Positions 2,055 to 21,488 of a DNA stretch of 29,838 nucleotides are shown here, piece after piece. Below the pieces are notes generated by a model, which saw only the letters and a list, made by a program, of their open reading frames with translations, did no database searches and was not told the origin of the DNA. Both the position numbers and the translations under genes were made by a program. This DNA comes from a virus: IMG/VR virus record IMGVR_UViG_3300005340_000068, positions 1 to 29,838 of that record; one strand, 5' to 3'. Position 1 is the first letter of the stretch, and each line of letters starts with the position of its first letter.

Positions 2055-2260
2055 TTGGCGCACTTGCGAGTGATGGTCCGCGCCGCAGTAGTCAGTTGGA
2101 CGCACTGCCATTCGCCTTTGGGATTATTTTGTTGGAGTATATCAATCTGGTCGAACACGGATTGCGGGTCGTCAAAGTATCCGCAGTCGCCCCACGATCC
2201 GTCTTTGCGGCGAACTTGCAGAACGTATGAGGTTTTGAGGACGGTGGTCACACTTTTCAT
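2045..2260 (-). CDS. hypothetical protein, 71 aa
   Basis: A small soluble-looking protein whose ATG overlaps the stop of the lipoprotein gene upstream (ATGA at 2257-2260), which supports that it is translated. It contains YVLQVRRKDGSWGDCGYFDDPQSV and ends in a Cys/Lys-rich tail with a CAKC pair. The aromatic, acidic central part resembles small phage proteins that read as compact beta/alpha domains, but I do not recognise a family. The terminal CxxC could bind a metal or form a disulphide. It sits between two membrane-associated small proteins at the end of the late operon, in the region where lysis or superinfection-control genes are common. Confidence 0.6.
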   Translation of the reverse strand: MKSVTTVLKTSYVLQVRRKDGSWGDCGYFDDPQSVFDQIDILQQNNPKGEWQCVQLTTAARTITRKCAKCK

Positions 2261-2706
2261 TTTGCTCGCGGGTCTTTGAGAACCTCGTCAATCGCGGCAT
2301 CCTTGACGCCAAGCTGACGAAGGATAAGCGCGTGGACTTGAGCGCGAGTGCGTTTCTCGCTATCTGTGTCGCTGGCCATGCGGTCAAGACGCTTGATGAT
2401 TTCCACAAGCTCACGGCTTTGCTCTCCGAGTTCCCGATTCTGGCCATAGGTCAGCCGATACAAGCCGATCATACCAATCAACATCACTCCCAGGAGGAAA
2501 TTGATGATGACATCGCGCGCCGGGCCGGAGCGCGGAATTTTGAGCGTCCCATCAATGTCGTCGTATCCGCCGGGCATGGCGGTCGGTCGGTTGACGACAT
2601 CCAGCCTTGGTGTTGGTTGGGGCGGTTCAACGTCTGCTGGCCGCAAAGCGTTCGAGCAACTCATTAGCACGATGAGAGAGGCCAATACCACAAGACCACG
2701 CATCAT
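2257..2706 (-). CDS. lipoprotein-like protein with a membrane segment and coiled coil
   Basis: The 149-residue product begins with a short hydrophobic leader ending in a lipobox-like LMSC (Cys17). A Pro-rich linker (24-62) follows, then a second hydrophobic segment (66-85, VIINFLLGVMLIGMIGLYRL) and a charged coiled-coil-like stretch (88-112, ELGEQSRELVEIIKRLD). The start is fixed by ATGA overlap with the stop of the beta-helix/SGNH gene. A lipid anchor plus a transmembrane helix in one small phage protein recalls unimolecular spanins, which join outer and inner membranes. The order differs from the known type, however: the membrane helix is central and about 60 residues follow it. A plain two-helix membrane protein is an alternative. 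Confidence 0.6.
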   Translation of the reverse strand: MMRGLVVLASLIVLMSCSNALRPADVEPPQPTPRLDVVNRPTAMPGGYDDIDGTLKIPRSGPARDVIINFLLGVMLIGMIGLYRLTYGQNRELGEQSRELVEIIKRLDRMASDTDSEKRTRAQVHALILRQLGVKDAAIDEVLKDPRAK

Positions 2707-4823
2707 AAGCGCCCCTTCGCGGTTTTTCCAACGACGGTGAGCGTTCCGGCTGCGGCGGCCGGCAGCATGGCGTTGAACCAGTTCGTCGCCATCTTTCGGT
2801 ATCCGTTCGTTTCAAAGTGCGTTTCGTCAAACATCACGTCAGTATGGAGAATCGGAATTGCGGTTAGCGAGTTTGTCCGCATGTCGCAAAAGTAAACCAG
2901 CTTTCCCGCGGCAAACTTGGTTGCGATGATGGCCTGGACGTAAGGATGATAAAGCAGGTCGAGCGAATTGTTCGTCGGCGCTAATCCTTGCCAAGGGTTC
3001 ATCGCGCTCACGATCAGCTTGGCCGTCGGATAATTGGTCGTCACCGAATCAATCAGCATCTTGAGCCGGTTGGTCATGTTCTGCAAATCGTTGTTGTGCC
3101 GTGCGTCGTTCACCTCGCCCTGCATTAGAACCCAGTCCGGCGCGTAGGCCAGACCGGACGCATAAGTTGAATAGTTCGTGGCCAATTCTCCGACTTCGAT
3201 TCCGCCATAACCGTCGTGGAGCGGATAGGGGTTCACCGTTCCGGCGTTGCTGCTGGTGTTACCGACGAAAACACAATTCACGCCCCGGTTGGTCAGCAGC
3301 GTGTAAAGAATATCCCGGTAGCCGCCGAACACAAAGTTCGTGCCCGTGCTCGACCCGCCGCGCGTCAGCGAGTCTCCCAGAGGCTGAACGTATGTCTTTG
3401 GGTAGCCTCCGAGCAGTGGAACGCTCGCGCTCCCGCCGTTGTCCGTGAACGTTGCGAAGGAGGCCGCGTAAACGTTCGTTGCGTAAAACGTCACGGTCAA
3501 GTTGGTGCTCTGACCGTTGGTGAGCGAGTAGCTTGTCGTGCCGGTCAGCTGCCAGGCGTTCGTGATCGTGAGCGTCACAGCGCCGGTCAGCGTTCCTCCA
3601 CCGATGTTCTGCACCGTGAGCGTCACGTTGCTGCTCCCGCCAATAATCGCGGTGATGTCCACGGACGCGGGCGAGACGGAAACGGCGGGGTTGTCGCTTC
3701 CATCCCAGAACGTCACGAGCGGATGCGGATAGGTCAACCGCGTGTAAGGATAGAAGTTGTTGCTGCTGACAATCGCGTGTGTGAAATAATGCGTGCCGAG
3801 AATCACGTAAGGAGTCGAGTCGTGGCCGGAGTAGTTTTCGATTTCAATGCCCGTCGTGGTCGTTCCGTTCAGCGTGTTCGCGTAGAAAAAGCTGTTGGTC
3901 ATCCTGTCCGTCCCGTCGAAAACGCCCGCGGTCGAAACGCCTTCATTCTTCAACTGGAACATCGTTCCGATTGACCCGGTGAAATCGTTGCTGTAGCAGA
4001 TCATGATTCCGCCGCGCAGATTGAATCCCCTGTCCGTGGTCACGCAGTCCCACTTGTTGCCGTAGATTTCGTAGAGCACCGTGCCGCGGCCAGCGCCTCC
4101 CGGCAGGTTGCCGTGCGCGTCCACCATGTATGCCGCGGTGTCGGTCGTGTCCTGCTGGAAATGGTTGAACCGAAACATGCACCTTGCGCCCTCCTGCCCG
4201 TAGAGCGTTTCATCGGTCAATTCTCCATTGACCGCGCTCGTCCGTTGAAACCAACAATCCTCCACGACGATTGCGTTTGTCGTTCCCGGTTTGATTTCGA
4301 GCAGCCAAGATTCCGCGCCGAGATTTGCAAGCCGAAGCCACGGGTAAATCTCGCCGTCGGAGTCGAGGAAGTGGCAATGGTCAACGACTCCGTAGTCGAG
4401 CGAGCCGCGCGTGAATATGACCTTGCTCCCGCCACGGAAACGGCAATGGTCTATTCGGAATTGTTTGTTCGTCGCCTCAAGGCTTATCGCCGTGTGGTCG
4501 CTCCGGCTGAACGCCCCCAGGTCGAAAAAGATATGCGAGATGCGAGCCTTGCCTGTTCCACCCGAGTAGTTCACCGCATTGACGCCGGTGGAAGTTGCGA
4601 TTTTCGTGTTGTTCGTCCCGTTCCCTTTCAACCAAATCGCTTTGTTCATGTCCAGCGGGCTGCTCCACGTCACCGTCCCGGTTGGTATCTGCAACACGTC
4701 GCCGTCATTGCAAAGCCCCATCGCGGTCGTCACCGCTGACAGTGACGCGCTCGCCGCGGTGTTCGTCACCGCGCGCGTGGACGCGCACGCGAAGCAAATC
4801 AGGATGGCAATTAGAATCCTCAT
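2703..4823 (-). CDS. secreted-type beta-helix protein with Ig-like and SGNH-hydrolase domains (tailspike-like)
   Basis: The 706-residue product starts at the ATG overlapping the upstream stop (ATGA at 4820-4823) and begins with a signal peptide (MRILIAILICFACASTRA). Residues about 20-375 look like a right-handed parallel beta-helix of the pectate-lyase or tailspike type, with repeated IDHCRF, VVDHCHF and VEDCWF rungs. Residues about 380-470 form an Ig-like beta domain (SVSPASVDITAIIGGSSNVTL). Residues about 476-688 form an SGNH/GDSL hydrolase: Ser485 in GDSLTRGG, Gly in HDGYGG (536-541), Asn572 in GEVND, and Asp666/His669 in DETH. Such enzymes remove acetyl or other acyl groups from carbohydrates. 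Its place at the end of the fibre genes suggests recognition and trimming of a surface glycan; the actual substrate is unknown. Confidence 0.85.
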   Translation of the reverse strand: MRILIAILICFACASTRAVTNTAASASLSAVTTAMGLCNDGDVLQIPTGTVTWSSPLDMNKAIWLKGNGTNNTKIATSTGVNAVNYSGGTGKARISHIFFDLGAFSRSDHTAISLEATNKQFRIDHCRFRGGSKVIFTRGSLDYGVVDHCHFLDSDGEIYPWLRLANLGAESWLLEIKPGTTNAIVVEDCWFQRTSAVNGELTDETLYGQEGARCMFRFNHFQQDTTDTAAYMVDAHGNLPGGAGRGTVLYEIYGNKWDCVTTDRGFNLRGGIMICYSNDFTGSIGTMFQLKNEGVSTAGVFDGTDRMTNSFFYANTLNGTTTTGIEIENYSGHDSTPYVILGTHYFTHAIVSSNNFYPYTRLTYPHPLVTFWDGSDNPAVSVSPASVDITAIIGGSSNVTLTVQNIGGGTLTGAVTLTITNAWQLTGTTSYSLTNGQSTNLTVTFYATNVYAASFATFTDNGGSASVPLLGGYPKTYVQPLGDSLTRGGSSTGTNFVFGGYRDILYTLLTNRGVNCVFVGNTSSNAGTVNPYPLHDGYGGIEVGELATNYSTYASGLAYAPDWVLMQGEVNDARHNNDLQNMTNRLKMLIDSVTTNYPTAKLIVSAMNPWQGLAPTNNSLDLLYHPYVQAIIATKFAAGKLVYFCDMRTNSLTAIPILHTDVMFDETHFETNGYRKMATNWFNAMLPAAAAGTLTVVGKTAKGRL

Positions 4824-6271
4824 TTGAACACGACGATGGCACACGTCCAGAGTTCGGAGTTCGCGGGCGTGGCCGTGGCCTGCACAGCGCCGGTGATGCA
4901 GGTTGTTATCCGGTCGCTTGTCTTGAGCCGCTCGTCGGCGGCCGTCGTCCGCGTGGTCGAGCCATCCGACGGAGTAATTGCGAACCCGGACGAGTCACCG
5001 AAGGTCTCGTAGAGCACCGAGCGGCCCGATGTTTGATTCACGTAACCGCTGGCCATCGCTTGCGACGACTGCGTAAATATCTGGTAGGTGTCCAACGTCG
5101 TCACGCCGCTGTATTCATGGGTCGCAATTTTGACCAGCAGGTTCGTGTTCTGCCGGATGTAAACGCGGTTCGCTCCCGTCGTCACGTTCGCTTTGTAATA
5201 CGTATAGAGCGAATGCGCGGACGAAAAACAGTCAATGTTCGTGATGAGCGTGTAAGAATCCCCGACGTTGTTCGTCACCGTGCTCACCGTTCCGTCCACG
5301 CCGTCCTGCCAGATGGACACGACACTGAGATTGCCCGCCGTCATGTTGGCCGCGAGATTCACGAACACGTTGGATGATCCTCCCACGACTGCGACGTTCG
5401 TTGTGTTGCCCTGGACGAATGCCGGCGCGGTCGTGAAATCGCAGATTTGGCAGTTCGTTCCGGCCCGAACCTCGATTGCAATAGTAGCCCAATCGCGCGA
5501 CGTGGCCGTGTTCGTCACCGTGGTCATCAGTGCCGCGTTGTTTGTATAGCAAACCTCCAATCCAGTCGCGGGAGTGTTGTAAGCTGTCTCGGAAAGTTCC
5601 GTCCAGTTTTGATTCGGAGCGATGTCCGATGCGCTGTTCACGTCGTCGGCCACGGCGAACAGCATCGTATTCAACGCGTTGTTGCCTGGCGCTACGAACT
5701 GGTTTGTCGGGTTCGCCGATGCGTTCACGCCATACGCGACGGCCTGCACGATTGCATTCGTTCCGTTGGTGATGACCTGCGAAGCGCCGGTGATCTGAAC
5801 AAGAGCCATGTTTACGCCGCTACCGGAAGCGATGGCGACCGACACCGAAGTCGAGAACGGAGCTTGTCCCTGCGGCATCTGCGCGACCCAAGCCGATAGC
5901 CGCGCCGTCGGCGTTCCGGTCACGTTGTAATTCGTCCCAGTCACCGGCTGCCACCAAGCCAGCGGCGTGGTGGAGTTGCTCACGCTCTCAGTGCCAAGCT
6001 GCGGCGTGCCGGCCACAAACAGGATGTAGGTCGCGTTGGTCGCAGTCGTGAAAGGGTCGAGCGTGTAGACGACGTTGTTCGACGTGTTCCCGAAGGCTTC
6101 GATGAGCGTAACGGCGAGTGTGTTCGTTCCGGCGGTGCAGGCTGCGGCGGCGGTGCTGGCGCGCTTAAAGTTTTTCACGCTGGCCAGATCGTCCCAAGTG
6201 TAGGCCTGACCGAAGGCCGCCGCTGGAAAAACCAGCAGGGCAATCAGCCGGATTAGTAAAGCGGTGTCCAT
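4820..6271 (-). CDS. secreted-type beta-sandwich repeat protein (fibre/adhesin-like)
   Basis: The 483-residue product has a signal peptide (MDTALLIRLIALLVFPAAAFGQ). The frame is open far upstream of 6271, but the upstream part has no protein-like composition, and 6271 overlaps the preceding stop by 19 bases. The mature protein is Thr/Asn/Ala/Ser-rich and has two related halves. Each begins with a spaced N-T-V/S strand set, contains a T-Y-x-L strand and a conserved Y-x-A/K segment, and ends in an aliphatic strand (WATIAIEVRAG near 245; LWTCAIVVFK at the C-terminus). This resembles an Ig-like jelly-roll domain common in bacterial secreted proteins. The function is probably structural or adhesive. 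It lies between a giant fibre and the SGNH spike. Confidence 0.7.
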   Translation of the reverse strand: MDTALLIRLIALLVFPAAAFGQAYTWDDLASVKNFKRASTAAAACTAGTNTLAVTLIEAFGNTSNNVVYTLDPFTTATNATYILFVAGTPQLGTESVSNSTTPLAWWQPVTGTNYNVTGTPTARLSAWVAQMPQGQAPFSTSVSVAIASGSGVNMALVQITGASQVITNGTNAIVQAVAYGVNASANPTNQFVAPGNNALNTMLFAVADDVNSASDIAPNQNWTELSETAYNTPATGLEVCYTNNAALMTTVTNTATSRDWATIAIEVRAGTNCQICDFTTAPAFVQGNTTNVAVVGGSSNVFVNLAANMTAGNLSVVSIWQDGVDGTVSTVTNNVGDSYTLITNIDCFSSAHSLYTYYKANVTTGANRVYIRQNTNLLVKIATHEYSGVTTLDTYQIFTQSSQAMASGYVNQTSGRSVLYETFGDSSGFAITPSDGSTTRTTAADERLKTSDRITTCITGAVQATATPANSELWTCAIVVFK

Positions 6272-9200
6272 GCGGCGTTCGTGGCTGAGATTCCCGTTGC
6301 TCCAGACCATTCCACCGTCAGCTTGGCCATTTTCCCGTTCGTCACATAATAAACCCGAGAGCCGTCGGGCGTGCCCCATTGAGCAGGAAGGAAAACCCCA
6401 TACGTCGTGCCGCTGGAATTGGTCAACGTCATCACGCCCGTCAGGATTGATCCGCTGACAATGCCGGAAACATTCGTGAGGCTGCAATCGTTGGTCACCG
6501 TGTAAGCGGTCTGCGCGGCGGGCCAGCCAACGGCCAGAGCATTGGTGCGCGTGGCCTGCGTTGCAACCGTCGGCGCAATCAAAGCCAAGGCAGACGGCAC
6601 GTTACCGATGATGTTCGTCCCGTTGTAATTCGTGATTGATGATCCGTTGTAAGGCCCGTTCGTGCTCAACGTGACTAGCGTGGGATTGTTATAGCCGTCC
6701 GATGGGTGAAACCAGCCCGTGCCGTTGTAGCGAAGCGCGTAGGACAGTTGGGACAGGCCGTCCACGGTGAGGGTCGAAACTACGGTGCGCGTCGCCTCGT
6801 CATAAACATTGTTCGGCAGCGTGTAAACCTTGCTGCTGGCCGACGAGTTGGTGATGACGAGCATGAACTCCTGATCCGTGCGCGCCGTTCCGCTGCTGGT
6901 CAATGTCGCGTTGGTGTCCGTCGTCAAATAGAGCCGAGGCTTACCCGTGAAATCCATGTTCAACCCGGTTGACTGCGACACGTAAATCGGCCCTTCGGAA
7001 CGCAACCCAGCACTGAATGAATTCGACGCGGAAAACCGCTGCGCGGCGGCGAGTGTCGCAAGCGTGGAAAGCTCGGTCGATGAAGCGGTGATCGTTCCCG
7101 TCGTGTCGAACACAGCAACCCGGCTTACCGCGGCTGCCGCTTGGTTTGTGATCGTGAGCGAACCTCCAAAGATCGTAATGTTGCCAGCCGTGGCGAAGTT
7201 CCCGCTTTCGTCCAAGAATCCAATCCTGCCGCCAGATGCGTCATACCATTGCGCGAAGTTGTTGCCCGTTCCCATGACGATGCGCTGATCCGGGTCGGTG
7301 TTGCTGTAATAAGTGTTCGTGCCACTCCCGCCGCCGCTGTCCGCGTCTGCGCGCCATGCCGGAATTCCGCTCGCGTCTGTTTTCCACACGAGGTTGCTCT
7401 TGCCCTGCGAACTCTCCACGATTCCAGAGACGCCCCACGCATTGGTGTTCAGCTTGGATGTCGGGATAAACCCAGAGCCGAACAGGTTCGTCGGGTTCGC
7501 GTTCGTAACCGCTGACCCGTTGTTATTGAACGCGACCACGGCGAGATTCTGCGTCGCGTAGCCCATCGGCGCCGTGAGCTCCGTGTCCCGCGTGATCGTC
7601 GAGGCCAAGCGCGCGTCCGCAACCGTGCCGGTCGCTATCGCAGCGCCGTCCAGATTCGTGATGCCCGCGCCGTCGCCCGCCGCAACGCCCGACGACGAGA
7701 AGAAAAACTTCGCCGCGCCAGCCGTGTCATTGATTGAAAGCGATGAGTTCGTCGCTATGGTGATCCGCGCCGCTCCGGAAGCGTCCGCGACGTTGCCGTT
7801 GGCCGATGTGAACTGGAACGCTCCCGGAATTGAGATGCTAGTTCCGCCGCCAGATCCGAGGAATGTCCCGACGTATCGGTTGCTCGCCAGATTGTTGAGA
7901 TTTGACGACGCTTGGAAAACGTTGCTCAACTGTAAAAAGTTGAACGTGCCGCTTCCGCCCGTGCCGAAGCTCGCAATCTCGGCTTCAGTGACCGTCCGGC
8001 TGGACGGAGAACCCTCGATGTAGAGGACCGCAGACCCGCTATTGGTCGAGCCGTAGAGCGAGATGTAGCCCGCACCGTTGGTGTTGAGCAATCGGAACAA
8101 TCCGCCGCTGACTTTCCCGGCGCTCGAAAGAATATCGCCGTTGACATCCAGCGCAGCGTCAGCCGTGGACTTGTTGATGGACACATAATGCCCCGCGCTG
8201 ATAGAGCCGCCGCCCCCGTCGTTGTCGTGGAACACGACGAGATTGGTTTTGTTCGGCGTATTGAAGCGATAGCCTCCGTAGTCGTTCTGGCGCGAGAAAA
8301 AATCCAGCTTTCCCGTGCCGGTGTTGCGTTTCAAAATAAACGTCTCCGTCGGGCTTACCGTTCCGATCTCAACAATCGGAAACGGATTTCCCATCATTGG
8401 AGTAAAGGTGTTGTCCTGGTTCTGAAACTCCCATCTGTTCAGGTTCGCGTCGGAGTTAGTGCCGTTCCAGCGGATGCTTTTAGGTGACCCGACCGTTCCC
8501 ACGGTCAACCGCAAATCCGAACCCTGGGCGTTCGCGCCCTTAAAGAAATAGGCGTTGTCGTAAGTGCCGCCGCTCCCGAAAAGATAGTTGCTCCCGCGCT
8601 TGCCGATCACGCCAGAGCCTTCGCTTGTGATGATCCACTCGTTTGTTGCAACCGTTGCAATGTAGCCCTTGTTGATTCCAATGATCCCTTCGTTGTTCGT
8701 GTTGTTTGCGAACGTCATCCACGGAGTGCCGTCGCCGAACTGGGTTCGGAAATCGATTTGGTCGCCGGAGAACGCCCCTTTGGTGAATCCGTTGGACAAT
8801 CCGAGCGTATATCCGAATCCAACATCAGTCCCGTTTAGCAATCCGTTGGTGAGAGTTACGCGGTCGTAAATCTCCATGACTGGGTGATTGAACGGATTGA
8901 ACCACGTGCTTTCGTATCCTCGAATCCATAGCGGCAAGTTCGCCTTGTATCCGGCGCTCGTGGTCAGGTTATAGCCGTAGTGAAGCTGCACGTCGCTCAA
9001 GCCGCTGAACGCGCTCGCGCCGTTCACGGCTGGGTTGAACCCGTTCGTTACAGCAGTCATTCTCCACGTAAACGGTCCGGCGTTGGTGTCTCCTGTATAA
9101 CCCTCCATCCACGGCTGTGAGCTGTTCGGCGGCACTGTGACCGTAGCCCGGACAATCGGAAAGGCGTTAGTAGACAAAAGGTTTCCGCGGTAAGCCAGGT

Positions 9201-10011
9201 TCAGCAGGTTGTTGTTCGTCCCCAGACCGCCGCTCTTCTCGATTCCGCTTCCGGTGATCCCCGTCAACTGGCTGCCGTCCACGGCGGGCAGAATCGCGGG
9301 GAAGCGCGCGTCGGGGATCGTGCCGGCAAGCAGATTGTTCGCATTAAGGTTGGTTGGATTCCCGTAGATAGTCACAACTGCCCCGTTGGTGCTCGCCAGC
9401 ACGTTCGTTCCTGCGGCCACGCCCTTGACCGGAATCGTCGTGCTGACCGTCACCACGCCGCTATTTGTTGTCGCGGTCGAGTCACCGCCCGCCGTCACGC
9501 CCACACCACTGCCGCCTGTTGCCGTTCCGTGAATGGTCAAACTGCCATCCGTGTTTGTCACGTAAACAATGTTCGTCCCTTGCCGCAAATACTGGTTGAT
9601 GTTCGTTCTCAGAAACCGCGCATCGGCCTGATTGCGACTCCATCCGAAAGCATTTCCATCAACGATTGTCGGCGGGGTCAGGTAGTCCACGGCGTTGACG
9701 TTGCCGACGACGTTCGTATCGAAATTGTTCGTGATCGTCGTTGTCGTTGTCGGCCCCAGGAATTCGACGCGATAGCTGCGACCGTTGACCATGTTGCTGA
9801 CGGTCAGGCTTGAGTTGTTGGCCGTCGTATAACTGCGCCGGTCGCCCGTCAAGATGTTCGTTCCGCTGATGCCGTAGGGCGCGATTGTTGTGATGTAAAC
9901 AGCGCGGACGTTCAATCCGCCTTGCGTAAAATCCGTGAAGTTCCAGCGGCAATTAAACGCGAGCGCATTGCTGGCCGCGAGCAACGCCAGCAGGCCAAAG
10001 AGTTTTTTCAT
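6253..10011 (-). CDS. giant tail-fibre-like protein with signal peptide
   Basis: The 1252-residue product starts at an ATG overlapping the preceding stop (ATGA at 10008-10011) and has a signal peptide (MKKLFGLLALLAASNALAF). An N-terminal beta domain (about 20-115, ending VNAVDYL) precedes a long Gly/Thr/Asn/Ser-rich region. Fibre-style modules are visible: two spaced copies of a GT(I/V)xDAR(F/L) motif (GTIPDARFP, GTVADARLAS), a LDVNGDILSSAG segment as in phage fibres with a collagen-like or peptidase-type tail region, and several GSGxG linkers. No enzymatic motif was found. It is by far the longest virion-type gene, consistent with a central or side fibre. What is odd is the export signal, since phage fibres normally assemble in the cytoplasm. 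Confidence 0.8.
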   Translation of the reverse strand: MKKLFGLLALLAASNALAFNCRWNFTDFTQGGLNVRAVYITTIAPYGISGTNILTGDRRSYTTANNSSLTVSNMVNGRSYRVEFLGPTTTTTITNNFDTNVVGNVNAVDYLTPPTIVDGNAFGWSRNQADARFLRTNINQYLRQGTNIVYVTNTDGSLTIHGTATGGSGVGVTAGGDSTATTNSGVVTVSTTIPVKGVAAGTNVLASTNGAVVTIYGNPTNLNANNLLAGTIPDARFPAILPAVDGSQLTGITGSGIEKSGGLGTNNNLLNLAYRGNLLSTNAFPIVRATVTVPPNSSQPWMEGYTGDTNAGPFTWRMTAVTNGFNPAVNGASAFSGLSDVQLHYGYNLTTSAGYKANLPLWIRGYESTWFNPFNHPVMEIYDRVTLTNGLLNGTDVGFGYTLGLSNGFTKGAFSGDQIDFRTQFGDGTPWMTFANNTNNEGIIGINKGYIATVATNEWIITSEGSGVIGKRGSNYLFGSGGTYDNAYFFKGANAQGSDLRLTVGTVGSPKSIRWNGTNSDANLNRWEFQNQDNTFTPMMGNPFPIVEIGTVSPTETFILKRNTGTGKLDFFSRQNDYGGYRFNTPNKTNLVVFHDNDGGGGSISAGHYVSINKSTADAALDVNGDILSSAGKVSGGLFRLLNTNGAGYISLYGSTNSGSAVLYIEGSPSSRTVTEAEIASFGTGGSGTFNFLQLSNVFQASSNLNNLASNRYVGTFLGSGGGTSISIPGAFQFTSANGNVADASGAARITIATNSSLSINDTAGAAKFFFSSSGVAAGDGAGITNLDGAAIATGTVADARLASTITRDTELTAPMGYATQNLAVVAFNNNGSAVTNANPTNLFGSGFIPTSKLNTNAWGVSGIVESSQGKSNLVWKTDASGIPAWRADADSGGGSGTNTYYSNTDPDQRIVMGTGNNFAQWYDASGGRIGFLDESGNFATAGNITIFGGSLTITNQAAAAVSRVAVFDTTGTITASSTELSTLATLAAAQRFSASNSFSAGLRSEGPIYVSQSTGLNMDFTGKPRLYLTTDTNATLTSSGTARTDQEFMLVITNSSASSKVYTLPNNVYDEATRTVVSTLTVDGLSQLSYALRYNGTGWFHPSDGYNNPTLVTLSTNGPYNGSSITNYNGTNIIGNVPSALALIAPTVATQATRTNALAVGWPAAQTAYTVTNDCSLTNVSGIVSGSILTGVMTLTNSSGTTYGVFLPAQWGTPDGSRVYYVTNGKMAKLTVEWSGATGISATNAAWTPLY

Positions 10012-11429
10012 GGTGCGAGAGAAACGAGAATCCAGCGTGAATCCGCCGCAGAGTAAATTAGGGTCGCGCACCCGTCCGCTGTCGTGGCCTGATCCGAACC
10101 TGTCAGCGTGTAAATCCGGTTTGCCGCTGTCGGGTCAACGCCGCTGTCATTGGCTACGGTCATATTCTGCCCGGTGCGGTTCAGCAAAATCACATAGCGA
10201 CCATCTTCGCCGCCTGCAATTCCGTTGACTGTGAATGCACCACTCGGTCCGCTGAGTTGGACGAAGACGTTTGTGGAAATATCCACGGCAGCGTTGTTCC
10301 CATTTGCGAGACTGGAATTAGCTTTGCGCGTGTAGGCAATGCTGCCGCTGAATCTGTTGGTGCCATCGGCAACGAATCCGCGCAGGACTCCCGGGACTGA
10401 AACATGATGCGAGGATGTGCCGAGCAATACCTGATTCGTTTCGGTCGTTTCGACGCCGCTTCCCAAAGCCACCGAATTTCCGAAGGTAGCAAGTGCTGAC
10501 TGTCCTATCGCCACTGAGTATTCACCGGCGGCTGAACTGCCACCGATTGCTGTGGAATAATCAGACGCAGCACTAGCCCCAGAGCCAGCGGCTAACGAAG
10601 ACGATCCGCTTGCCGTTGCTGATTGACCCAAAGCCACGGCATTAAGGCCGCTTGATCCCGCCCCAAAGCCGAATTGTTCAGAACCTGCTCCGCTTCCTGG
10701 GCTACGAAACGCATTTCCTCGATTGATGCCGTTGGTAAGAACAGGATTGACGAGCGTGCCGGCATACCAAAGTCCGTTGGAAAGCAGGTTCACAATTCCG
10801 GTGAAATTCGTGGATGACATAACGCCGACGACGAGCACGCCGGCGCGGTTGGTGACGATAACCACGCCGGAAAATGTTTTGTCGCCGCTGATCGTCTGCG
10901 AGTTCGTGCGGCCAACGAGATTTGAAACGCTGCCGGAATTTTCAAATAGCGATTTGGCGGTTGGGAGATTCAGCCAGTCCACCAGTCCGGCGCTGATCGT
11001 TGGCCGCGTGGCCGACGCGATGACGGTGTAGGGAACGACAACATCATAGGCGCTGCTCACGGTCTGCGTGGAATAGGTCACGCTGAAATAATTCGTCACG
11101 CCGCTGATGATGAGCGGTGCGCCGGTTTGAGCGTCGAGCCGCAGCACAGCCGCGCCGGTCATAAATGGAGTGACCCGCGATGGAGGCGTCGAAAGCAGAT
11201 GGTTGTAAAGGTTGGTCGCAATCCCGTTGACGGTCGAATTGGTCAGGAGTTGCGTGGCTGGATTCGTCACGCTGGCATACCAAGTGCGCGTATCACCGTT
11301 GATCGTAATTGTCTGACCGTTGGTTGTTGGTGCGTTGGTGATCGTCAGGGTTGCCGTGATCCGGTCGGTAGCCCGGATTGGAACGCAGAACGCCAGCATC
11401 AGGAACAGGGTCGGGTAAATCTTTTTCAT
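10008..11429 (-). CDS. trimeric-fibre-like protein with YadA-type head repeats and signal peptide
   Basis: The 473-residue product starts at an ATG in ATGA overlap with the preceding stop and begins with a signal peptide (MKKIYPTLFLMLAFCVPIRA). Residues about 262-337 carry about five YadA/Hep-Hag head-type repeats of roughly 14 residues, for example NAVALGQSATASG, YSTAIGGSSAAG, YSVAIGQSALATFG and NSVALGSGVET. This pattern forms left-handed trimeric beta-rolls in trimeric autotransporter adhesins and in some phage fibres. The N-terminal part (20-240) is Thr/Asn-rich beta. The C-terminus (GEDGRYVILLNRTGQNMTV) resembles fibre-tip modules. No autotransporter membrane anchor is visible, which favours a phage fibre over a true adhesin. 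Confidence 0.8.
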   Translation of the reverse strand: MKKIYPTLFLMLAFCVPIRATDRITATLTITNAPTTNGQTITINGDTRTWYASVTNPATQLLTNSTVNGIATNLYNHLLSTPPSRVTPFMTGAAVLRLDAQTGAPLIISGVTNYFSVTYSTQTVSSAYDVVVPYTVIASATRPTISAGLVDWLNLPTAKSLFENSGSVSNLVGRTNSQTISGDKTFSGVVIVTNRAGVLVVGVMSSTNFTGIVNLLSNGLWYAGTLVNPVLTNGINRGNAFRSPGSGAGSEQFGFGAGSSGLNAVALGQSATASGSSSLAAGSGASAASDYSTAIGGSSAAGEYSVAIGQSALATFGNSVALGSGVETTETNQVLLGTSSHHVSVPGVLRGFVADGTNRFSGSIAYTRKANSSLANGNNAAVDISTNVFVQLSGPSGAFTVNGIAGGEDGRYVILLNRTGQNMTVANDSGVDPTAANRIYTLTGSDQATTADGCATLIYSAADSRWILVSLAP

Positions 11430-12088
11430 GTCAGGTAATCAGTCGGGTTGCCGTCATTGTCCACGCCGGGGGCTTCTCGCGTATGCGACCCGTCAGGCGA
11501 AACGAAGATTGGAGTTTTGCCGTAGCTGGCCGCGATTCGATTGTCCCATCGAACAAACATCGCATCCAGTTGGGCGGCGGTGTAATAGCTGGCCGCGGGC
11601 GTCGGTATGCTCGCCGCTCCCGATGGGTCTTTGACCACGGAAAGAACCGTGATCGAGGTCTGGAATACCGGCGCAAACGCCCCGCCGCGGCTCATCTGGA
11701 TTTCAAAAAACGTGGCGATGGAGTCGTTCGTGCCAACGGCGGTATTCATCTCCGTCGTGTTGAGGTCGAAATCCGCGTAGAAATAGCCGCTCTTCCCGTC
11801 GGAGTCCGGCGCACTTTGTTTCGCCCAGGTCGGTTGCGATGCAAGCAACGCCTGCGCGCCCGCGCGAGGGCCGGCTACGACGTAAAGTTCCAACCCGGAA
11901 AGCGGGACGAGCGAGAAGTAGGGCGCGTTGATCTGGTTGCCGGTGGGCACGACCGGATAAAATCGAAACTTGAGAAGCTGCCCCTGATAGAACGGCCCAA
12001 GCGTGATTTGTGTCGTGTCGCTCAACCCCTTCACGATTGCACCCTGCGGCGTCGAGATGTTCAGAAAGACTTCAATCGCGTCCGTCAT
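11426..12088 (-). CDS. tail-tip/baseplate-region protein, unrecognised
   Basis: A 220-residue, beta-rich acidic protein without a signal peptide. It contains FLNISTPQGAIVKGLS, then a region with TTQITLGPFYQGQLLKFRFYPV, and ends in a segment with AAQLDAMFVRWDNRIAASYGK. Its stop is in ATGA overlap with the start of the YadA-type fibre. It is the last protein of the tail block without a signal peptide, so it may be the adapter that joins the tail tip to the fibres. That role is inferred only from position. A 47-base gap separates it from the previous gene, a rare break in this otherwise coupled operon. Confidence 0.65.
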   Translation of the reverse strand: MTDAIEVFLNISTPQGAIVKGLSDTTQITLGPFYQGQLLKFRFYPVVPTGNQINAPYFSLVPLSGLELYVVAGPRAGAQALLASQPTWAKQSAPDSDGKSGYFYADFDLNTTEMNTAVGTNDSIATFFEIQMSRGGAFAPVFQTSITVLSVVKDPSGAASIPTPAASYYTAAQLDAMFVRWDNRIAASYGKTPIFVSPDGSHTREAPGVDNDGNPTDYLT

Positions 12089-13266: not shown

Positions 13267-14024
13267 GTAACGAAATCGTGAAGCAGCGCCGGCCAAAGTC
13301 CGTATTCCCATTCTTGCGAGACGTTCCAGCGATTGTTTCCGGTCTGCTGAATGTTCGGATGCTTCTTATACCAGGCGTAGCCGAAGCCGCTTTTCGCCGT
13401 CGTGAAGTTTGGGAGATTGAACAGGATGCCTGCCGGGATGCTTTCCTGAATCGAAAGCGCCGTCGTCGTGATGACTTTTCCAACGTTGTCGAGCGTGGCC
13501 TTTACCCCATACGAACCGCTGACCAGCTTTGACACTTTGAGCGTAGGCACGTTGACGCGGTAGCTTCTCACACCGCCCAGCATCAACTCGTATAGGTCTT
13601 GGACGTTCAGGATGAGCGGGTCAGTTGGATCAAAGTCCGGCTCGCTGTCCGGGTTTGGTGCGGCGATGGCATCACGCAAGACGCGCTTGTTTTCTGAACT
13701 GATGGAATTGATCGTTGAGATGTCGGCTTCGAGAATGTCGATCTCGACGACGTTGGCGAGATACTCCCAAACCTGTTGCGGCTGCTCTGTTCCTGTTCCT
13801 CCTGGTTCGGGCGAGCCGATGGTCTCGAAAGTGATTGCGGCATTCGGAGATTTCGTGCACGAATATCGGAACGAATAGCCCAGCCCAGCCAGCTGGTTAA
13901 TCATGGGCCGCACAGCTTCTTTCGGTCCTTCGGTTTCCCAACGACCAGACCAGCCTTGAGACGGTGAGAAAGTGATTTCCTCACTGTTCTGGGTTGCAGT
14001 TTTTTTGCCTCGAATCGTGCTCAT
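13263..14024 (-). CDS. tail-tip protein, unrecognised
   Basis: A 253-residue protein whose ATG overlaps the tape-measure stop (ATGA at 14021-14024). It has an N-terminal beta region (EITFSPSQGWSGRWETEG), a central acidic helical region (VVEIDILEADISTINSISSENKRVLRDAI) and a C-terminal part with YAWYKKHPNIQQTGNNRWNVSQEWEYG. The C-terminal sequence, with tryptophans and the phrase NRWNVSQEWEYG, resembles structural proteins that describe domain edges rather than enzymes. As the first gene after the tape measure it occupies the position of the distal tail protein of siphophages, which caps the tail tube. That assignment is positional. Confidence 0.65.
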   Translation of the reverse strand: MSTIRGKKTATQNSEEITFSPSQGWSGRWETEGPKEAVRPMINQLAGLGYSFRYSCTKSPNAAITFETIGSPEPGGTGTEQPQQVWEYLANVVEIDILEADISTINSISSENKRVLRDAIAAPNPDSEPDFDPTDPLILNVQDLYELMLGGVRSYRVNVPTLKVSKLVSGSYGVKATLDNVGKVITTTALSIQESIPAGILFNLPNFTTAKSGFGYAWYKKHPNIQQTGNNRWNVSQEWEYGLWPALLHDFVT

Positions 14025-15202
14025 GATAGCGGTGGGATGTTTTCAGCCGTGCCTTTCACGACGCCAATCTTTTGCAGAATCTCATTCGTCTTTTTTGCAA
14101 CTTCGAGATGCTGCCTTGCGACCTGAAGCTGCTGGCCTGCGATGTTGTTCACGAGCGCCGGATTGCGCCCTAAGAAATTGCCGATGCCAACGAGCGCGTC
14201 GGTTGGCAGGTGAATGCGTGGTTGCCGGTCGCGCTCCAGTCCCGGCGGCTCGAATCCTGGCGGTCCTTGCTCCCGCCGCCTTCTCGCTTCGTGCATCCTG
14301 TCTCTGGCTGACTCCATCCTGTCCGTTTCGTCCTGCTGCGCTGCGGCCTCGGATACCGCGGCTTGCGAGCCAGCATCAACAGCGGAAATTATTTTCGATT
14401 CGCCCTTGAACGCTTTGAGCAAATCGCCCATCGGATCAACCGCGAATTTTACAACATCCGTCGGCGTAACTTTTCCGGTCGCCCCGCCGAGGAATGCGCC
14501 GGCCTGTTTTGCCGAATTGATGAAATCCCGCACGGCCCTGGCGACAAGCAGAATTGCCGGCGCTAGGTCGATCATCAGAGTGCGTCCAAGGATTGTGAAC
14601 TCATCCCCAATGTCGTCGAGTTGATTGATTACGTCCTCGGTGAAAATCGGAGCGTCCGATTGAAACTGATCGTGAAAGGCAGCCAAAAGATTCCTTGCAG
14701 TCCGCCCACCGACGGCCTCGACATCAACAGCGGTCTGCGCGGTTGCCCCCTGTCCGAATGCGGCAACCAGCTTGTCGAAGAATGCTGCCGTGTTCATCGC
14801 CTGAACCTCTTCGCCGCTGAACCCGAGACGCTGGAATCGCCTTGCCTCTTCTCCTCCCGGCTGCTGGACCGCTGCCGCACGCGATTTATTGATCTGGTCA
14901 ATGAACTTTGCGAGATCGTCCTCGCTCGCGCCGGCCAACGCCGCGGCATTGGCACGTTTCTGAAACCATTCGACGTTGACCCGCAATGCATCCGACACAT
15001 CGCGCAGATGGCTCGCAAATTCAATCGTCCTGCGAGACAGCGCGGAGATTGCTCCGACGGTAAACGCCCCGGCGATGATGTTTTTCAGCGGCGCGATTGA
15101 TGAGGTTGCGAACTGCCGCACGCGCGCATCGGCGCGATTCATCATCGCGTTAAAACCGCTTCCGTCCCCGCCAAGTTCCGCAACAAGTTTCAGGCCGGGC
15201 AT
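14021..15202 (-). CDS. tail tape measure protein (short)
   Basis: A 393-residue, mostly helical, Ala-rich protein. The N-terminal part reads like a tape measure start (LVAELGGDGSGFNAMMNRADARVRQFA). A hydrophobic stretch (37-56, IAPLKNIIAGAFTVGAISAL) and several long helices follow, then a charged linker and a C-terminal segment (LPTDALVGIGNFLGRNPALVNN) leading into a coiled coil. It follows the tail tube and likely chaperone, the canonical order. At about 0.15 nm per residue it predicts a short tail of roughly 60 nm, an estimate from length only. It overlaps the preceding gene by 13 bases. Confidence 0.8.
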   Translation of the reverse strand: MPGLKLVAELGGDGSGFNAMMNRADARVRQFATSSIAPLKNIIAGAFTVGAISALSRRTIEFASHLRDVSDALRVNVEWFQKRANAAALAGASEDDLAKFIDQINKSRAAAVQQPGGEEARRFQRLGFSGEEVQAMNTAAFFDKLVAAFGQGATAQTAVDVEAVGGRTARNLLAAFHDQFQSDAPIFTEDVINQLDDIGDEFTILGRTLMIDLAPAILLVARAVRDFINSAKQAGAFLGGATGKVTPTDVVKFAVDPMGDLLKAFKGESKIISAVDAGSQAAVSEAAAQQDETDRMESARDRMHEARRRREQGPPGFEPPGLERDRQPRIHLPTDALVGIGNFLGRNPALVNNIAGQQLQVARQHLEVAKKTNEILQKIGVVKGTAENIPPLS

Positions 15203-18261: not shown

Positions 18262-18290
18262 ATGATAGATGCCCGCCAAGCTGAGTTCAA
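18262..18290 (-). promoter_or_regulatory. candidate sigma-70-type promoter of the tail operon
   Basis: Read on the minus strand: TTGAAC (18290-18285), a 17-base spacer, and TATCAT (18267-18262). It would start transcription near 18255, about 36 bases before the ATG at 18219. The -10 box overlaps the start codon of the plus-strand gene at 18262, so this promoter and the plus promoter should interfere. Confidence 0.45.
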
Positions 18291-19599
18291 CAATCTTTAT
18301 CGTTCCGCCGTTGCGCTCGCCCAGGAAGAAAAGCCGGTTGAAGCAGAGTTAGCGTTTGTGCGGGCAGCCGCATTCGCGCCCGAGAAATGGTGCGACGTCG
18401 CCACGAAACTCGCTAAAGACGGCGAGGAAGCGATGGCGATTGAGCATTTCAGGACGGCGTTGCAAATCACGGAACATCCCGGAATCCGGTCGGGCATATT
18501 TTCCAACCTCGCAATCATCTATCTCAAGCGCGGACAACTAAACGACGGCGAGGCGATGCTGTGCGAGTCGCTGCGGATCAATCCCAACTCCGCCGATGCG
18601 CTGGTGAATATGGGCCAGCTTTATAAGTGGCGCGGCAATCTCGCGATGTCGGAACGCTATTGCAATGCCGCGCTCAAGCTGAACCCGTGGCATTCCGAGG
18701 GCCAATTTCTCCGGGCGTTGAACGCTCTCGACCAGTGCGACTACGCGCACGGATGGCCGCTGTATGAGTGCCGCTGGAGGTCCAAGACAAATGGGTATCG
18801 CAAAATGGAATGCTTTCAACCTGAGTGGGCAGGACCGGGAAGCGAATTCAACGGCGAGATGTTGAAGCGCCTTTTCGTCTATTGCGAGCAGGGCGCGGGA
18901 GATATTTTTTTGATGCTGCGATACGCTCCGCTGATTCGCGCTGCTGGAATGCAACAAGCGTGGGCGCTGAAACCCGGTATGGCCGCGCTCGTTGGTGATC
19001 TCGTGGACGCCTGCAACGACGAAGGCACGGCGCCAGATGGCTTCGATTGCCACGTCGCTTCCGCCTCGCTGCCTTACATTTTCAAGACGCGGTTGGAAAC
19101 AATTCCGCCATGCCCATATCTCAGAGCGCCATCGCCCGTGGATTTTGGCCCGGGCTTTCACGTCGGCATTTGCTGGCGCGGAAATACCGGCCAATACAAC
19201 GACGCTATCCGGTCCACCGCGCTCGCAGATTGGCTGCCGGTGCTCGACGTGCCAGGCGTGAAGTTCCACAGCTTTCAGGTTGACGGCGCGGACGAGGCTT
19301 TGCTCTATCCGCAAATCCAGATTCACGACCGCCCGAAAGACTGGCGCGAAACTGCGAACCGCATCGCTGGCATGAATTTGATAATCACAGTGGACACCGG
19401 CTTGCTCCACCTCGCCGGCGCGATGGGTCTGCCGGTCTGGTGCGCGCTGCATTGCCGGCCGTATTTCGTTTTCCCGATCAAGCGACCGGATACGCCCTGG
19501 TATCCATCAGTGAAACTGTTCAAGCAGATTAGGGCTTATTATTGGAAAGATGTGTTTTGCGCCATTTCCAAGGAATTGAGCCGAGCAATTCGAGCATAA
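18262..19599 (+). CDS. TPR-domain glycosyltransferase (GT9-like catalytic part)
   Basis: A 445-residue protein. Residues about 10-170 are TPR-type helical repeats, for example SNLAIIYLKRGQLNDGEAML and VNMGQLYKWRGNLAMSERYCNAALKLNP. The catalytic part follows with motifs seen in bacterial TPR glycosyltransferases: YCEQGAGDIFLMLRYAPLI (207-225), VGICWRGNTGQYNDAIRSTAL (301-321) and the nucleotide-sugar-binding ITVDTGLLHLAGAMGLPVW (375-393). The architecture is that of protein O-glycosyltransferases and heptosyltransferase-like enzymes. It is the first gene of the plus-strand cassette, starting opposite the tail operon. The acceptor is unknown: a virion protein or a host surface glycan are both possible. 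Confidence 0.8.
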   Translation: MIDARQAEFNNLYRSAVALAQEEKPVEAELAFVRAAAFAPEKWCDVATKLAKDGEEAMAIEHFRTALQITEHPGIRSGIFSNLAIIYLKRGQLNDGEAMLCESLRINPNSADALVNMGQLYKWRGNLAMSERYCNAALKLNPWHSEGQFLRALNALDQCDYAHGWPLYECRWRSKTNGYRKMECFQPEWAGPGSEFNGEMLKRLFVYCEQGAGDIFLMLRYAPLIRAAGMQQAWALKPGMAALVGDLVDACNDEGTAPDGFDCHVASASLPYIFKTRLETIPPCPYLRAPSPVDFGPGFHVGICWRGNTGQYNDAIRSTALADWLPVLDVPGVKFHSFQVDGADEALLYPQIQIHDRPKDWRETANRIAGMNLIITVDTGLLHLAGAMGLPVWCALHCRPYFVFPIKRPDTPWYPSVKLFKQIRAYYWKDVFCAISKELSRAIRA

Positions 19600-19615
19600 C
19601 TAAAGAGTATGCTCG
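19591..19615 (+). terminator. hairpin across the stop codon of the TPR-glycosyltransferase gene
   Basis: A perfect 8-base inverted repeat (CGAGCATA at 19591-19598 and TATGCTCG at 19608-19615) with a 9-base loop. It contains the TAA stop (19597-19599). There is no T-run after it, so it may be a weak terminator or a message-stability or processing hairpin. Confidence 0.35.
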
Positions 19616-19630
19616 GGATTCCGATTTCCT

Positions 19631-19659
19631 TTGACGCTCTCACCATAAGCGGTTATGGT
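19631..19659 (+). promoter_or_regulatory. promoter with an operator palindrome over the -10 box
   Basis: TTGACG (19631-19636), a 17-base spacer and TATGGT (19654-19659). A perfect palindrome, ACCATAA-GCGG-TTATGGT (19642-19659), covers the -10 box and half of the spacer, as a repressor site would. The predicted start is at about 19666, the ATG of the next gene, so the message would be leaderless. Confidence 0.6.
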
Positions 19660-19665
19660 GCGCGT

Positions 19666-19935
19666 ATGAACAAGGCCGCCCAATCTCTCGGACGCCTCTC
19701 CAAAGGCAGGCCGAAACACTACAGCGCCGAGGAAATCAAACGGCGCTCGAAAATCCTGGCGAAGGTGAATGCCGGGAAACAGGCCAACGCCCGACTCGTC
19801 GAGGCCGCACGAACGATGCTCGAAACATTGCAAGCTTTCGATGCCTGGCTGCTCTCGCCATCACTCACCCCAAAAGCGATTGAAACAATGCGCGCGAAAG
19901 CCCGCGCAGCCATCGCGAAAGCAACCGAGGTTTGA
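19666..19935 (+). CDS. small basic protein, 89 aa, unrecognised
   Basis: The start chosen is the ATG at 19666, which sits at the predicted transcription start of the promoter at 19631-19659. An ORF extension to 19609 would lie across that promoter. The N-terminal third is strongly basic (SLGRLSKGRPKHYSAEEIKRRSKILAKVNAGKQ would span several motifs; here GRLSKGRPKHYSAEEIKRR at 8-26), and the rest is helical and Ala-rich. A DNA-binding role is possible from the charge, and it is the first gene after an operator-like palindrome, but no helix-turn-helix is clear. Function unknown. Confidence 0.6.
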   Translation: MNKAAQSLGRLSKGRPKHYSAEEIKRRSKILAKVNAGKQANARLVEAARTMLETLQAFDAWLLSPSLTPKAIETMRAKARAAIAKATEV

Positions 19936-19981
19936 AAATTGTGGGTTGCACCCGTCCTCCCCTTCCTTACAAGTTGAAAAA

Positions 19982-20323
19982 ATGGAAACCGAACATTCAG
20001 AACGAATTGAGCTTCGCGCGCACCGCGAACCGTGGCTATCCGATTCAATCGCAATCCGAATCGCACAAATACTGGAACGCGACGGCAAGACGCGTATTGC
20101 CCTAGCTCAACCAATAGTATTGAAAACGCTTTCGCAGGCTGAGCTTAATTGCGAAATGCCGCCGACTTTCAGACTTAGGCTGGAAGATTGCCAGCAATTC
20201 ATGGACGAACTTTGGCGCGTTGGAATTCGGCCCACTGAAGGCGCTGGCAGCGTTGGGCAGTTGGGCGCAATCAAGGCGCACTTGGAAGACATGAGGACGC
20301 TTGTTTTCAAATCCAAAACATGA
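19982..20323 (+). CDS. hypothetical phage protein, 113 aa
   Basis: A 113-residue acidic protein starting at METEHSER, after a purine-rich GTTGAAAAA. Longer ORF extensions to 19769 run over the previous gene and are not credible. The C-terminal segment (QQFMDELWRVGIRPTEGAGS, followed by QLGAIKAHLEDMRTLVF) resembles a small protein that I have seen in many phages without a function. The N-terminal half reads as a beta/alpha domain. Its stop overlaps the next ATG (ATGA), so the next gene is coupled to it. Confidence 0.7.
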   Translation: METEHSERIELRAHREPWLSDSIAIRIAQILERDGKTRIALAQPIVLKTLSQAELNCEMPPTFRLRLEDCQQFMDELWRVGIRPTEGAGSVGQLGAIKAHLEDMRTLVFKSKT

Positions 20324-20568
20324 GCACCGCATCACCAAAGTGGAAAAAACCCATAAGCGCGCGCGATAAATTGCGACGCGAGAAAAAACTCGAACGAATG
20401 CGAGTTTTGAAACCCGTCACTGTCATGTTGAGCAAGGGTCAGATAGCCCTTTGCCGCCATCTATGCCGAGCGACCAAAAAGCCACACCCGACAATGGCGG
20501 AAATGTTGGCCGTCGCATTGATAAAGGGATTGCTGCAACTGGATAATGAGCGATACACAAACGGATGA
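20320..20568 (+). CDS. small basic protein, 82 aa
   Basis: Starts in ATGA overlap with the previous stop and ends in ATGA overlap with the FkbM methyltransferase start, which strongly supports translation. The N-terminal half is very basic (KWKKPISARDKLRREKKLER) and the C-terminal half is helical (MAEMLAVALIKGLLQLDNERY). There is a Cys-His-Cys set (ALCRHLCRATKK), which is not a complete zinc motif. It could be a small nucleic-acid-binding protein; no family is recognised. Confidence 0.65.
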   Translation: MSTASPKWKKPISARDKLRREKKLERMRVLKPVTVMLSKGQIALCRHLCRATKKPHPTMAEMLAVALIKGLLQLDNERYTNG

Positions 20569-21377
20569 ACCCTTCACCCAAATACACCGTCCTATTACCA
20601 TCGCGCTGGGGATGGTTTGTCGGCCTGAGGGCTGACCCATTCCAGACCGGCGCAATAGCCACGATGGGCGAATGGTCGCCGGACGAGAGCCAGATTCTCC
20701 GCGGCTTCCTGCGCCCCGGCGATACGGTAGTTGACGTGGGCGCGAACGTTGGCAACCACACGATGGCTTTCGCTGCCGCGGTTGGCGACTCCGGCCACGT
20801 CCTCGCGTTCGAGCCGCAGCGTTATTGCTACTTGTGCTTGTGCGCGAACATCGCATTGAATTCGCTCGTGCATTTCGTCGAGCCGTTCCAACTGGCCGTC
20901 GGTGCGGAGGTCGGCGTGATTGATGTTCCGATCCTGAACCCGCTTGGCCAGATGACCAATTTCGGCGGTGTCTCACTCACCGACAAGCACACGTCGCCAA
21001 CCGAAAAAGCCAACTGCGTCACGATTGATTCCCTGAACCTTTCGGCGCTCACTCTGCTAAAGATTGACGTCGAGGGAATGGAGCCGGCCGTCCTGCGCGG
21101 CGCGGCGCAAACCATCAACCGATTCCGTCCGGTCATCTGGAGCGAATGCCTCAAGGATCGGGGAACGAAAGATGAGTTGCTGGCCATCTTCGCAGAGTTG
21201 AATTATCGCGCTTGGTGGTGCGCGACTGAATTGTTCTGCCAGCAGAATATCCGCCAATGCCGCCACAATCTTTTCACCTTCCCGGACGGCCAGAAAATGC
21301 AGGATCATAACGTGCTCGCGTTGCCAGCGGAAAAGAATCCGCCGCCGTGGACTGAGAATGCACAACCCTTCGCATGA
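20565..21377 (+). CDS. FkbM-family SAM-dependent methyltransferase
   Basis: A 270-residue protein with a SAM-binding glycine motif (VDVGANVGN, 56-64), an acidic end of strand 2 (FEP, 82-84), and the family's KIDVEGME motif (166-173), followed by LRGAAQTINRFRPVIWSEC. FkbM-type enzymes commonly methylate hydroxyl groups of sugars or polyketides, and they are frequent next to glycosyltransferases in surface-glycan loci. Here it lies between small genes and a GT4-like glycosyltransferase, so methylation of a sugar added by the neighbours is the simplest reading, by inference. Its start is in ATGA overlap with the gene before. Confidence 0.85.
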   Translation: MNPSPKYTVLLPSRWGWFVGLRADPFQTGAIATMGEWSPDESQILRGFLRPGDTVVDVGANVGNHTMAFAAAVGDSGHVLAFEPQRYCYLCLCANIALNSLVHFVEPFQLAVGAEVGVIDVPILNPLGQMTNFGGVSLTDKHTSPTEKANCVTIDSLNLSALTLLKIDVEGMEPAVLRGAAQTINRFRPVIWSECLKDRGTKDELLAIFAELNYRAWWCATELFCQQNIRQCRHNLFTFPDGQKMQDHNVLALPAEKNPPPWTENAQPFA

Positions 21378-21488
21378 CCACCAAACTAGCTTCTAGCAAA
21401 ATCGTTGTTCAATTCCGATTTCCTGTCGGGAATCGCATCCGACTTTGAAATTCCGACTTGCGTTTATCCATGCAAGGGTGGTTTACGA

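Follow-up and report, generated by a model that had tools for sequence, protein, structure and literature searches.

Gene organization of the fibre array

The window is a viral contig of 29,838 bases from a metagenome. The late genes form a compact operon on the minus strand, and the head genes (terminase, portal, head-tail joining and protease-fused head proteins) are of the lambda type. Four consecutive fibre-type genes, P0001 to P0004, lie after the tape measure and hub and before the lysis genes, which is the position of receptor-binding fibres (Table 1). The coordinates of these open reading frames had been given exactly in the first-pass annotation, all four are on the minus strand, and the N-termini quoted there are identical to those found here.

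ATGA overlaps are present at the junctions 11429/11426, 10011/10008, 4823/4820 and 2706/2703. As had been claimed, three starts (11429, 10011 and 4823) are set by such an overlap with the preceding stop. The last junction couples a fifth gene (2706 to 2257), which had been overlooked and which probably belongs to the lysis cassette. The start of P0003 is ambiguous, being either ATG 6271, with a 19-nt overlap, or the in-frame ATG 6310, which adds 13 residues; the hydrophobic leader is present with both.

Table 1. Genes and predicted leaders in and around the array.
Feature	Coordinates	Strand	Description
Tape-measure-like protein	14021..15202	-	phrog_9483, E 4.6e-9; its position puts the array immediately after the tail genes
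Last leaderless gene before the array	11426..12088	-	candidate fibre connector, from position and C-terminal YYTAAQLDAMF motif
Fibre-type gene 1, P0001	10008..11429	-	473 aa; Sec leader and mature fibre with YadA-head-type repeats, without YadA membrane anchor
P0001 leader	11370..11429	-	MKKIYPTLFLMLAFCVPIRA, then TD; predicted cut after residue 20
Long fibre gene 2, P0002	6253..10011	-	1252 aa; shares modules with the long fibre of L081 and with fibres in L064 and L069 that bear leaders
P0002 leader	9958..10011	-	MKKLFGLLALLAASNALA, then FN; predicted cut after residue 18
Fibre-type gene 3, P0003	4820..6271	-	483 aa; leader-bearing homologues in L081 (57% over 287 aa), L064 and L083; leaderless homologous domain in L084
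P0003 leader	6209..6271	-	MDTALLIRLIALLVFPAAAFG, then QA; predicted cut after residue 21; alternative start ATG 6310
Gene 4, P0004	2703..4823	-	706 aa; leader, repetitive N-terminal region, GDSL/SGNH esterase domain
P0004 leader	4770..4823	-	MRILIAILICFACASTRA, then VT; one among several permitted cuts
Fifth coupled gene	2257..2706	-	149 aa; lipoprotein-type leader LVVLASLIVLMSC, lipobox LMSC, internal transmembrane segment

P0001 contains YadA-head repeats (PF05658, E 2.3e-8) and has weak PHROG matches; its closest solved chain is the head of the trimeric autotransporter BpaC (7o23). The C-terminal YadA outer-membrane anchor was not found among its Pfam matches at E up to 0.1. P0001-P0004 gave no match to an anchor of the membrane, PEP-CTERM, T9SS or YadA type, so retention at the surface is not indicated, and there was no Pfam match to the Ail/Lom outer-membrane barrel in these proteins. 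P0003 matched no Pfam family and its AlphaFold model had a pLDDT of 34. The esterase domain of P0004 was identified by PF00657 (E 9.7e-10) and by the lipolytic enzyme 2vpt (E 1.7e-16), and its catalytic blocks are present as QPLGDSLTRG (the Ser block GDS), GEVND (the Asn block) and DETHF (the Asp-x-x-His block). By eye, the repetitive N-terminal region of P0004 resembles a beta-helix. The product of 11426..12088 had no Pfam or PHROG match, and between the tape measure and the lysis genes of the window no long-fibre candidate without a leader is left. The array would encode the receptor-binding fibres of the window phage together with a fibre-associated esterase.

Several other genes of the window were identified. 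On the plus strand, 157-804 gave a Mom-family match (PF25680, E 1.2e-10) suggesting Mom-type DNA modification, and 818-1792 encodes a phage integrase whose nearest family is that of the integron integrases (TIGR02249, E 1.7e-69, 234.6 bits vs. a curated cut-off of 265). Also on that strand, opposite to and between the head and tail genes, 18262-22595 encodes a TPR/glycosyltransferase-9-like protein, an FkbM methyltransferase and a GT4 glycosyltransferase, possibly a glycan-modification cassette that could act on the virion or the fibres. A 5.3-kb contig from another metagenome (L002) carries a terminase and portal 100% identical to those of the window, so the phage has been sampled more than once.

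Predicted signal peptides of the four proteins

Signal peptides were scored with a home-made heuristic, not SignalP, in which a re-typed von Heijne matrix was combined with hydropathy and charge. All of P0001-P0004 were called (P0003 being read from 6271), in agreement with the earlier claim of Sec signal peptides on the four fibre-type genes. No further window gene longer than 100 aa scored as leader-bearing; the preceding tail genes are leaderless, as had been stated. The features of leaders cut by signal peptidase I, namely a positive or neutral n-region, a hydrophobic core and an AxA-type cut site, are found in all four.

Among about 2550 internal 45-mer positions of P0001-P0004, 46 scored. 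The background was taken from 61 loci picked by terminase only, where 5 of 260 genes of at least 200 aa scored, several of the five being doubtful; the chance of four out of four at this rate is about 1e-7. Two consecutive scoring genes of at least 150 aa were seen in none of these loci. The gene caller chose ATG 6310 for P0003, and the automatic count of consecutive scoring genes thereby loses the run in the window. When shuffled N-terminal residues were used as the null, 8-40% passed; this null does not discriminate, as the composition itself carries the signal. A cut exposing Gln at +1 is permitted in one of the four window leaders; those of P0001, P0002 and P0004 fall outside the Q-rule described below, so that the Q-rule test is mute on the window itself.

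As far as sequence can tell, the leaders in the window are confirmed as real and beyond chance. It was considered whether they could be artefacts, either hydrophobic starts that arose by chance or misassigned start codons, given that the predictor is heuristic and the start of the third gene ambiguous. This explanation is largely refuted by the background rates, the fixed ATGA starts, and the recurrence and Q-rule evidence presented below, and we regard it as scarcely credible.

Recurrence of leader-bearing arrays in other contigs

The contigs that share the array architecture are otherwise unrelated to the window. In L064, of 77.7 kb, four genes in succession carry leaders and two of these are partly homologous to P0002 and P0003; its array also encodes a beta-helix protein. 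Within the same fibre array, 14352-15059 encodes a protein that combines a Sec leader with a lysyl oxidase domain (PF01186, E 2.5e-11). A purple-acid-phosphatase N-terminal domain is likewise included in arrays outside the window. In L081 the leader is kept on the P0003 homologue (57% identical, with a different leader sequence) and on the next protein, of 670 aa. The first long fibre of this contig (5167-9995) is an exception: its frame opens at ATG 5167 with a Cys-rich N-terminus that contains a short LYRDEINNALYQAT segment, and a leader-like hydrophobic stretch follows only after about 70 residues, with no usable start codon adjoining it. L069, L070, L068 and L083 each have two or more fibre genes with leaders.

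Fibre-type modules of P0002 or P0003 are shared with other phages, namely L064, L081, L069, L077, L079, L083 and L084. The fibre genes of L071-L080 with a GTVADAR-type motif and the P0003-type domain of L084 are leaderless; thus, modules occur both with and without leaders. For P0003, P0009 and P0006 the leader is kept though its sequence has been replaced. No close relatives of the window's fibres were found among annotated phages.

Arrays with virion records in Cellulophaga phages

The nearest counterparts by architecture are in Cellulophaga phages of the Assiduviridae and Pachyviridae. Phage phi19:1 has four consecutive post-tail genes, gp101-gp104, each with a clear leader, and phi10:1 gp91-gp94 and phi18:3 gp85-gp87 have the same position and a leader on every gene. 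Like the window, phi19:1 gp101-gp104, phi10:1 gp91-gp95 and phi18:3 gp85-gp87 are consecutive post-tail fibre or pectate-lyase genes with Sec leaders; unlike the window, they belong to phages of Bacteroidota and their leaders follow the Q-rule. No direct sequence match between the proteins of the two sets was found, and the likeness is of architecture only. L083, which combines a P0003-type domain with Q-rule leaders, is a partial bridge between them. By position and leader, similar arrays are present in phi13:2, phi46:3, phi19:3, Nekkels_1 and Ingeline_1, which together with phi19:1, phi10:1 and phi18:3 fall into three families. The leaders of phi18:3 gp85 (with the gp84, gp79 and gp87 homologues) and of Ingeline_1 gene 34 are under the matrix threshold and clear by eye. 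A small fibre-like protein with a leader, distant from the structural genes, was also noted in Flavobacterium phage FCL-2 (gp71; L100 45363-45806); this type occurs in 78 Flavobacterium phage records, covering at least 80% of its length in 65 of them.

According to the notes of the GenBank records, from which their MS/MS status was taken, phi19:1 gp101-gp104, phi10:1 gp91-gp94 and phi18:3 gp85-gp87 are virion or structural proteins by "experimental MS/MS proteomics analysis". The leader-bearing array member phi10:1 gp95 is without such a record. No leader is present on the head, tape-measure and hub proteins that were detected by MS and examined in these phages.

In Bacteroidetes, signal peptidase I exposes Gln at +1 in most substrates, with a mean of 71% (PMC5837995). 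Such a cut is permitted in 17 of 18 distinct leaders from the eight Cellulophaga phages and, after removal of near-duplicates, in 11 of 12; the figure for random 35-mers is 7.9% (P about 8e-12). The leader of the gp102 type, compared over seven phages, has 74 synonymous and 0 nonsynonymous codon differences, indicating that leaders are under purifying selection. By these measures the leaders of the Cellulophaga arrays look genuine. The leader and the next 20-60 residues are nearly identical between families and the remainder is variable, so that this portion looks like an exchangeable unit of leader plus docking segment. Assiduviridae and Pachyviridae have different N-termini in gp101, the product of the array's first gene, which may therefore be a tail-specific adaptor that provides the docking site for the other fibres.

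The cut sites bear on the earlier suggestion of membrane tethering. In that case uncleaved leaders would anchor the fibres in the inner membrane where tails are completed. In favour of such a function, the hydrophobic cores are long and strong and a lipoprotein gene is coupled at the end of the array. However, AxA-type sites are present in all four window proteins, the strong +1 Gln signature of the Cellulophaga set (17 of 18) is sensible only with cleavage, and uncut fibres in the virion would bear a hydrophobic N-terminus facing the tail. Tethering is accordingly disfavoured and in our view very improbable.

Alternatively, the leaders could be passive relics of host secreted proteins, with late expression leaving most of the product to assemble in the cytoplasm. 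Export may be impaired when the holin acts, and fibre-like modules do circulate with and without leaders, as in L084 and L071-L080, which have none, or phi4:1 gp48 compared with phi19:1 gp104. Purifying selection on the leaders, their persistence on P0003, P0009 and P0006 despite replacement, and the presence of a leader on every array gene in many phages are difficult to reconcile with relics, and we consider this explanation decidedly unlikely. The first-pass annotation had raised the prospect that the same leaders are common among related fibres assembled in the cytoplasm; leaders do recur in other phages, but nothing points to cytoplasmic assembly there.

Leaderless fibres and the host

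Fibres without leaders were found in phi18:1 and phi4:1, which infect the same host genus and have MS-detected fibres, and in phi38:1, crAss001, B124-14, 11b, P12024S and P2559Y. The fibres of P8625, the first lytic verrucophage, also have no leader (PMC4642752). The examples of phi18:1, phi4:1 and crAss001 indicate that neither host genus nor phylum dictates leaders, and, with P8625, that export is not obligatory. Judged from these comparisons, the leader trait is a property of the fibre module and not of the host.

A search of genome contigs with the fibre profile for a prophage or host gave no match. Terminase relatives were found in genomes named Phyllobacteriaceae, Sericytochromatia, Gastranaerophilales and Lachnospiraceae, in which no such array was seen. 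A Shine-Dalgarno-like motif precedes only 2 of 26 window genes, as in phages of Bacteroidota and Verrucomicrobiota; the other phage loci examined mostly differ in this. This weak use, together with leaders that do not show a +1 Gln rule (1 of 4), fits a diderm host outside Bacteroidota; Verrucomicrobiota, from composition, is only a guess.

Proposed route of the fibres to the virion

It is probable, and we hold this with moderate confidence, that the receptor-binding fibres are exported by Sec, processed, and docked on tails in the periplasm or outside the cell at lysis. The fibres would be made late, alongside the tail and lysis proteins, exported via Sec and cut by signal peptidase I, and they would reach their folded, trimeric state in the periplasm or further out. 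Meanwhile the cytoplasm would produce heads and tails that lack fibres, and the mature fibres would dock on the tail tip upon failure of the inner membrane at lysis or just after release. The case for export and cutting of the predicted leaders is strong in the Cellulophaga set and good in the window. Virion membership is on record for the Cellulophaga proteins, and those of the window phage would share it by analogy. Docking outside the cytoplasm would follow from export and virion membership, and its place and time are proposed on that footing. Exported fibres joining the virion outside the cytoplasm had been one of three readings offered at first pass; it is the best supported of them through the Cellulophaga arrays with MS/MS records, and would extend to the window phage by analogy.

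The main rival, above all for the enzyme-bearing members, is that P0001-P0004 are exported and are not parts of the virion. They would instead be secreted depolymerases or adhesins that strip polysaccharide from the host ahead of release, cover its surface to block superinfection, or benefit the lysogen. The GDSL/SGNH domain of P0004 looks complete, the lysyl oxidase, beta-helix and purple-acid-phosphatase N-terminal domains of arrays elsewhere are typical of extracellular enzymes, and the gene for the exported Lom protein of lambda sits in the tail-fibre region (PMC12309495). Moreover, phage-encoded periplasmic or vesicle proteins could co-purify with virions in MS/MS. Against this, three Cellulophaga phages have similar proteins on record in their virions, translational coupling ties the genes into a late tail-lysis operon so that they are not set apart like morons, and the window phage would be left without a long fibre gene. 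Secretion alone is unlikely for these reasons. Secreted cargo, as first suggested, is the weaker reading for the whole set, but single enzyme members, such as the GDSL esterase here or the lysyl oxidase of L064, could act free.

More tentatively, since we would put it somewhat below an even chance, a large share of the tailed phages that infect diderms with weak Shine-Dalgarno use (Bacteroidota and probably Verrucomicrobiota-like hosts) may use two-compartment assembly, with the leader and a short docking segment swapped between families as a module. The capsid and tail would be built in the cytoplasm, and the receptor-binding fibres would pass through Sec export and periplasmic processing and attach to the tail while the cell lyses or afterwards.

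If whole receptor-binding sets are exported first, the picture of the place and moment at which host-range proteins are added to the particle changes. Exported fibres would have a window of time in which to modify or shield the host surface, and would be exposed to periplasmic chemistry such as disulphide formation, pyroglutamate formation and glycosylation. Expression and annotation would also be affected, in that leaders are to be removed and not taken for tail-binding domains. The proposal is directly testable in the isolated Cellulophaga phages.

Comparison with known systems

The usual view is that assembly of tailed phages takes place entirely in the cytoplasm. The coat proteins pIII and pVIII of filamentous inoviruses enter the membrane via a cleaved signal peptide. 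A literature search, with most subscription papers outside reach, found no published account of tailed phages with arrays of fibre genes that bear leaders. The main text of the paper on Nekkels and Ingeline mentions neither signal peptides nor tail fibres (PMC8776804), and according to a survey of diversity-generating retroelements (DGRs) the phage targets are without signal peptides (PMC6199706).

The trimeric autotransporter adhesins YadA and BpaC resemble P0001 in having a Sec leader and YadA-head repeats; P0001 differs in that no C-terminal membrane anchor was matched. Lambda Lom is likewise an exported protein from a tail-fibre region (PMC12309495). However, it is an outer-membrane beta-barrel of the lysogen and no fibre, and P0001-P0004 gave no Lom match. 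Inovirus pIII and pVIII are, as is proposed for the array proteins, structural phage proteins with a signal peptide, but they are membrane-anchored and assembled during extrusion, and are neither tailed-phage fibres nor joined at lysis. Conventional fibres and tailspikes (phi4:1, phi18:1 and Bacteroides crAss001) share with the array the post-tail position, fibre-type modules and beta-helix and lyase-type domains, and differ in their leaderless N-termini. On the proposed reading, the array is ordinary as a set of receptor-binding fibres and unusual in its route to the particle.
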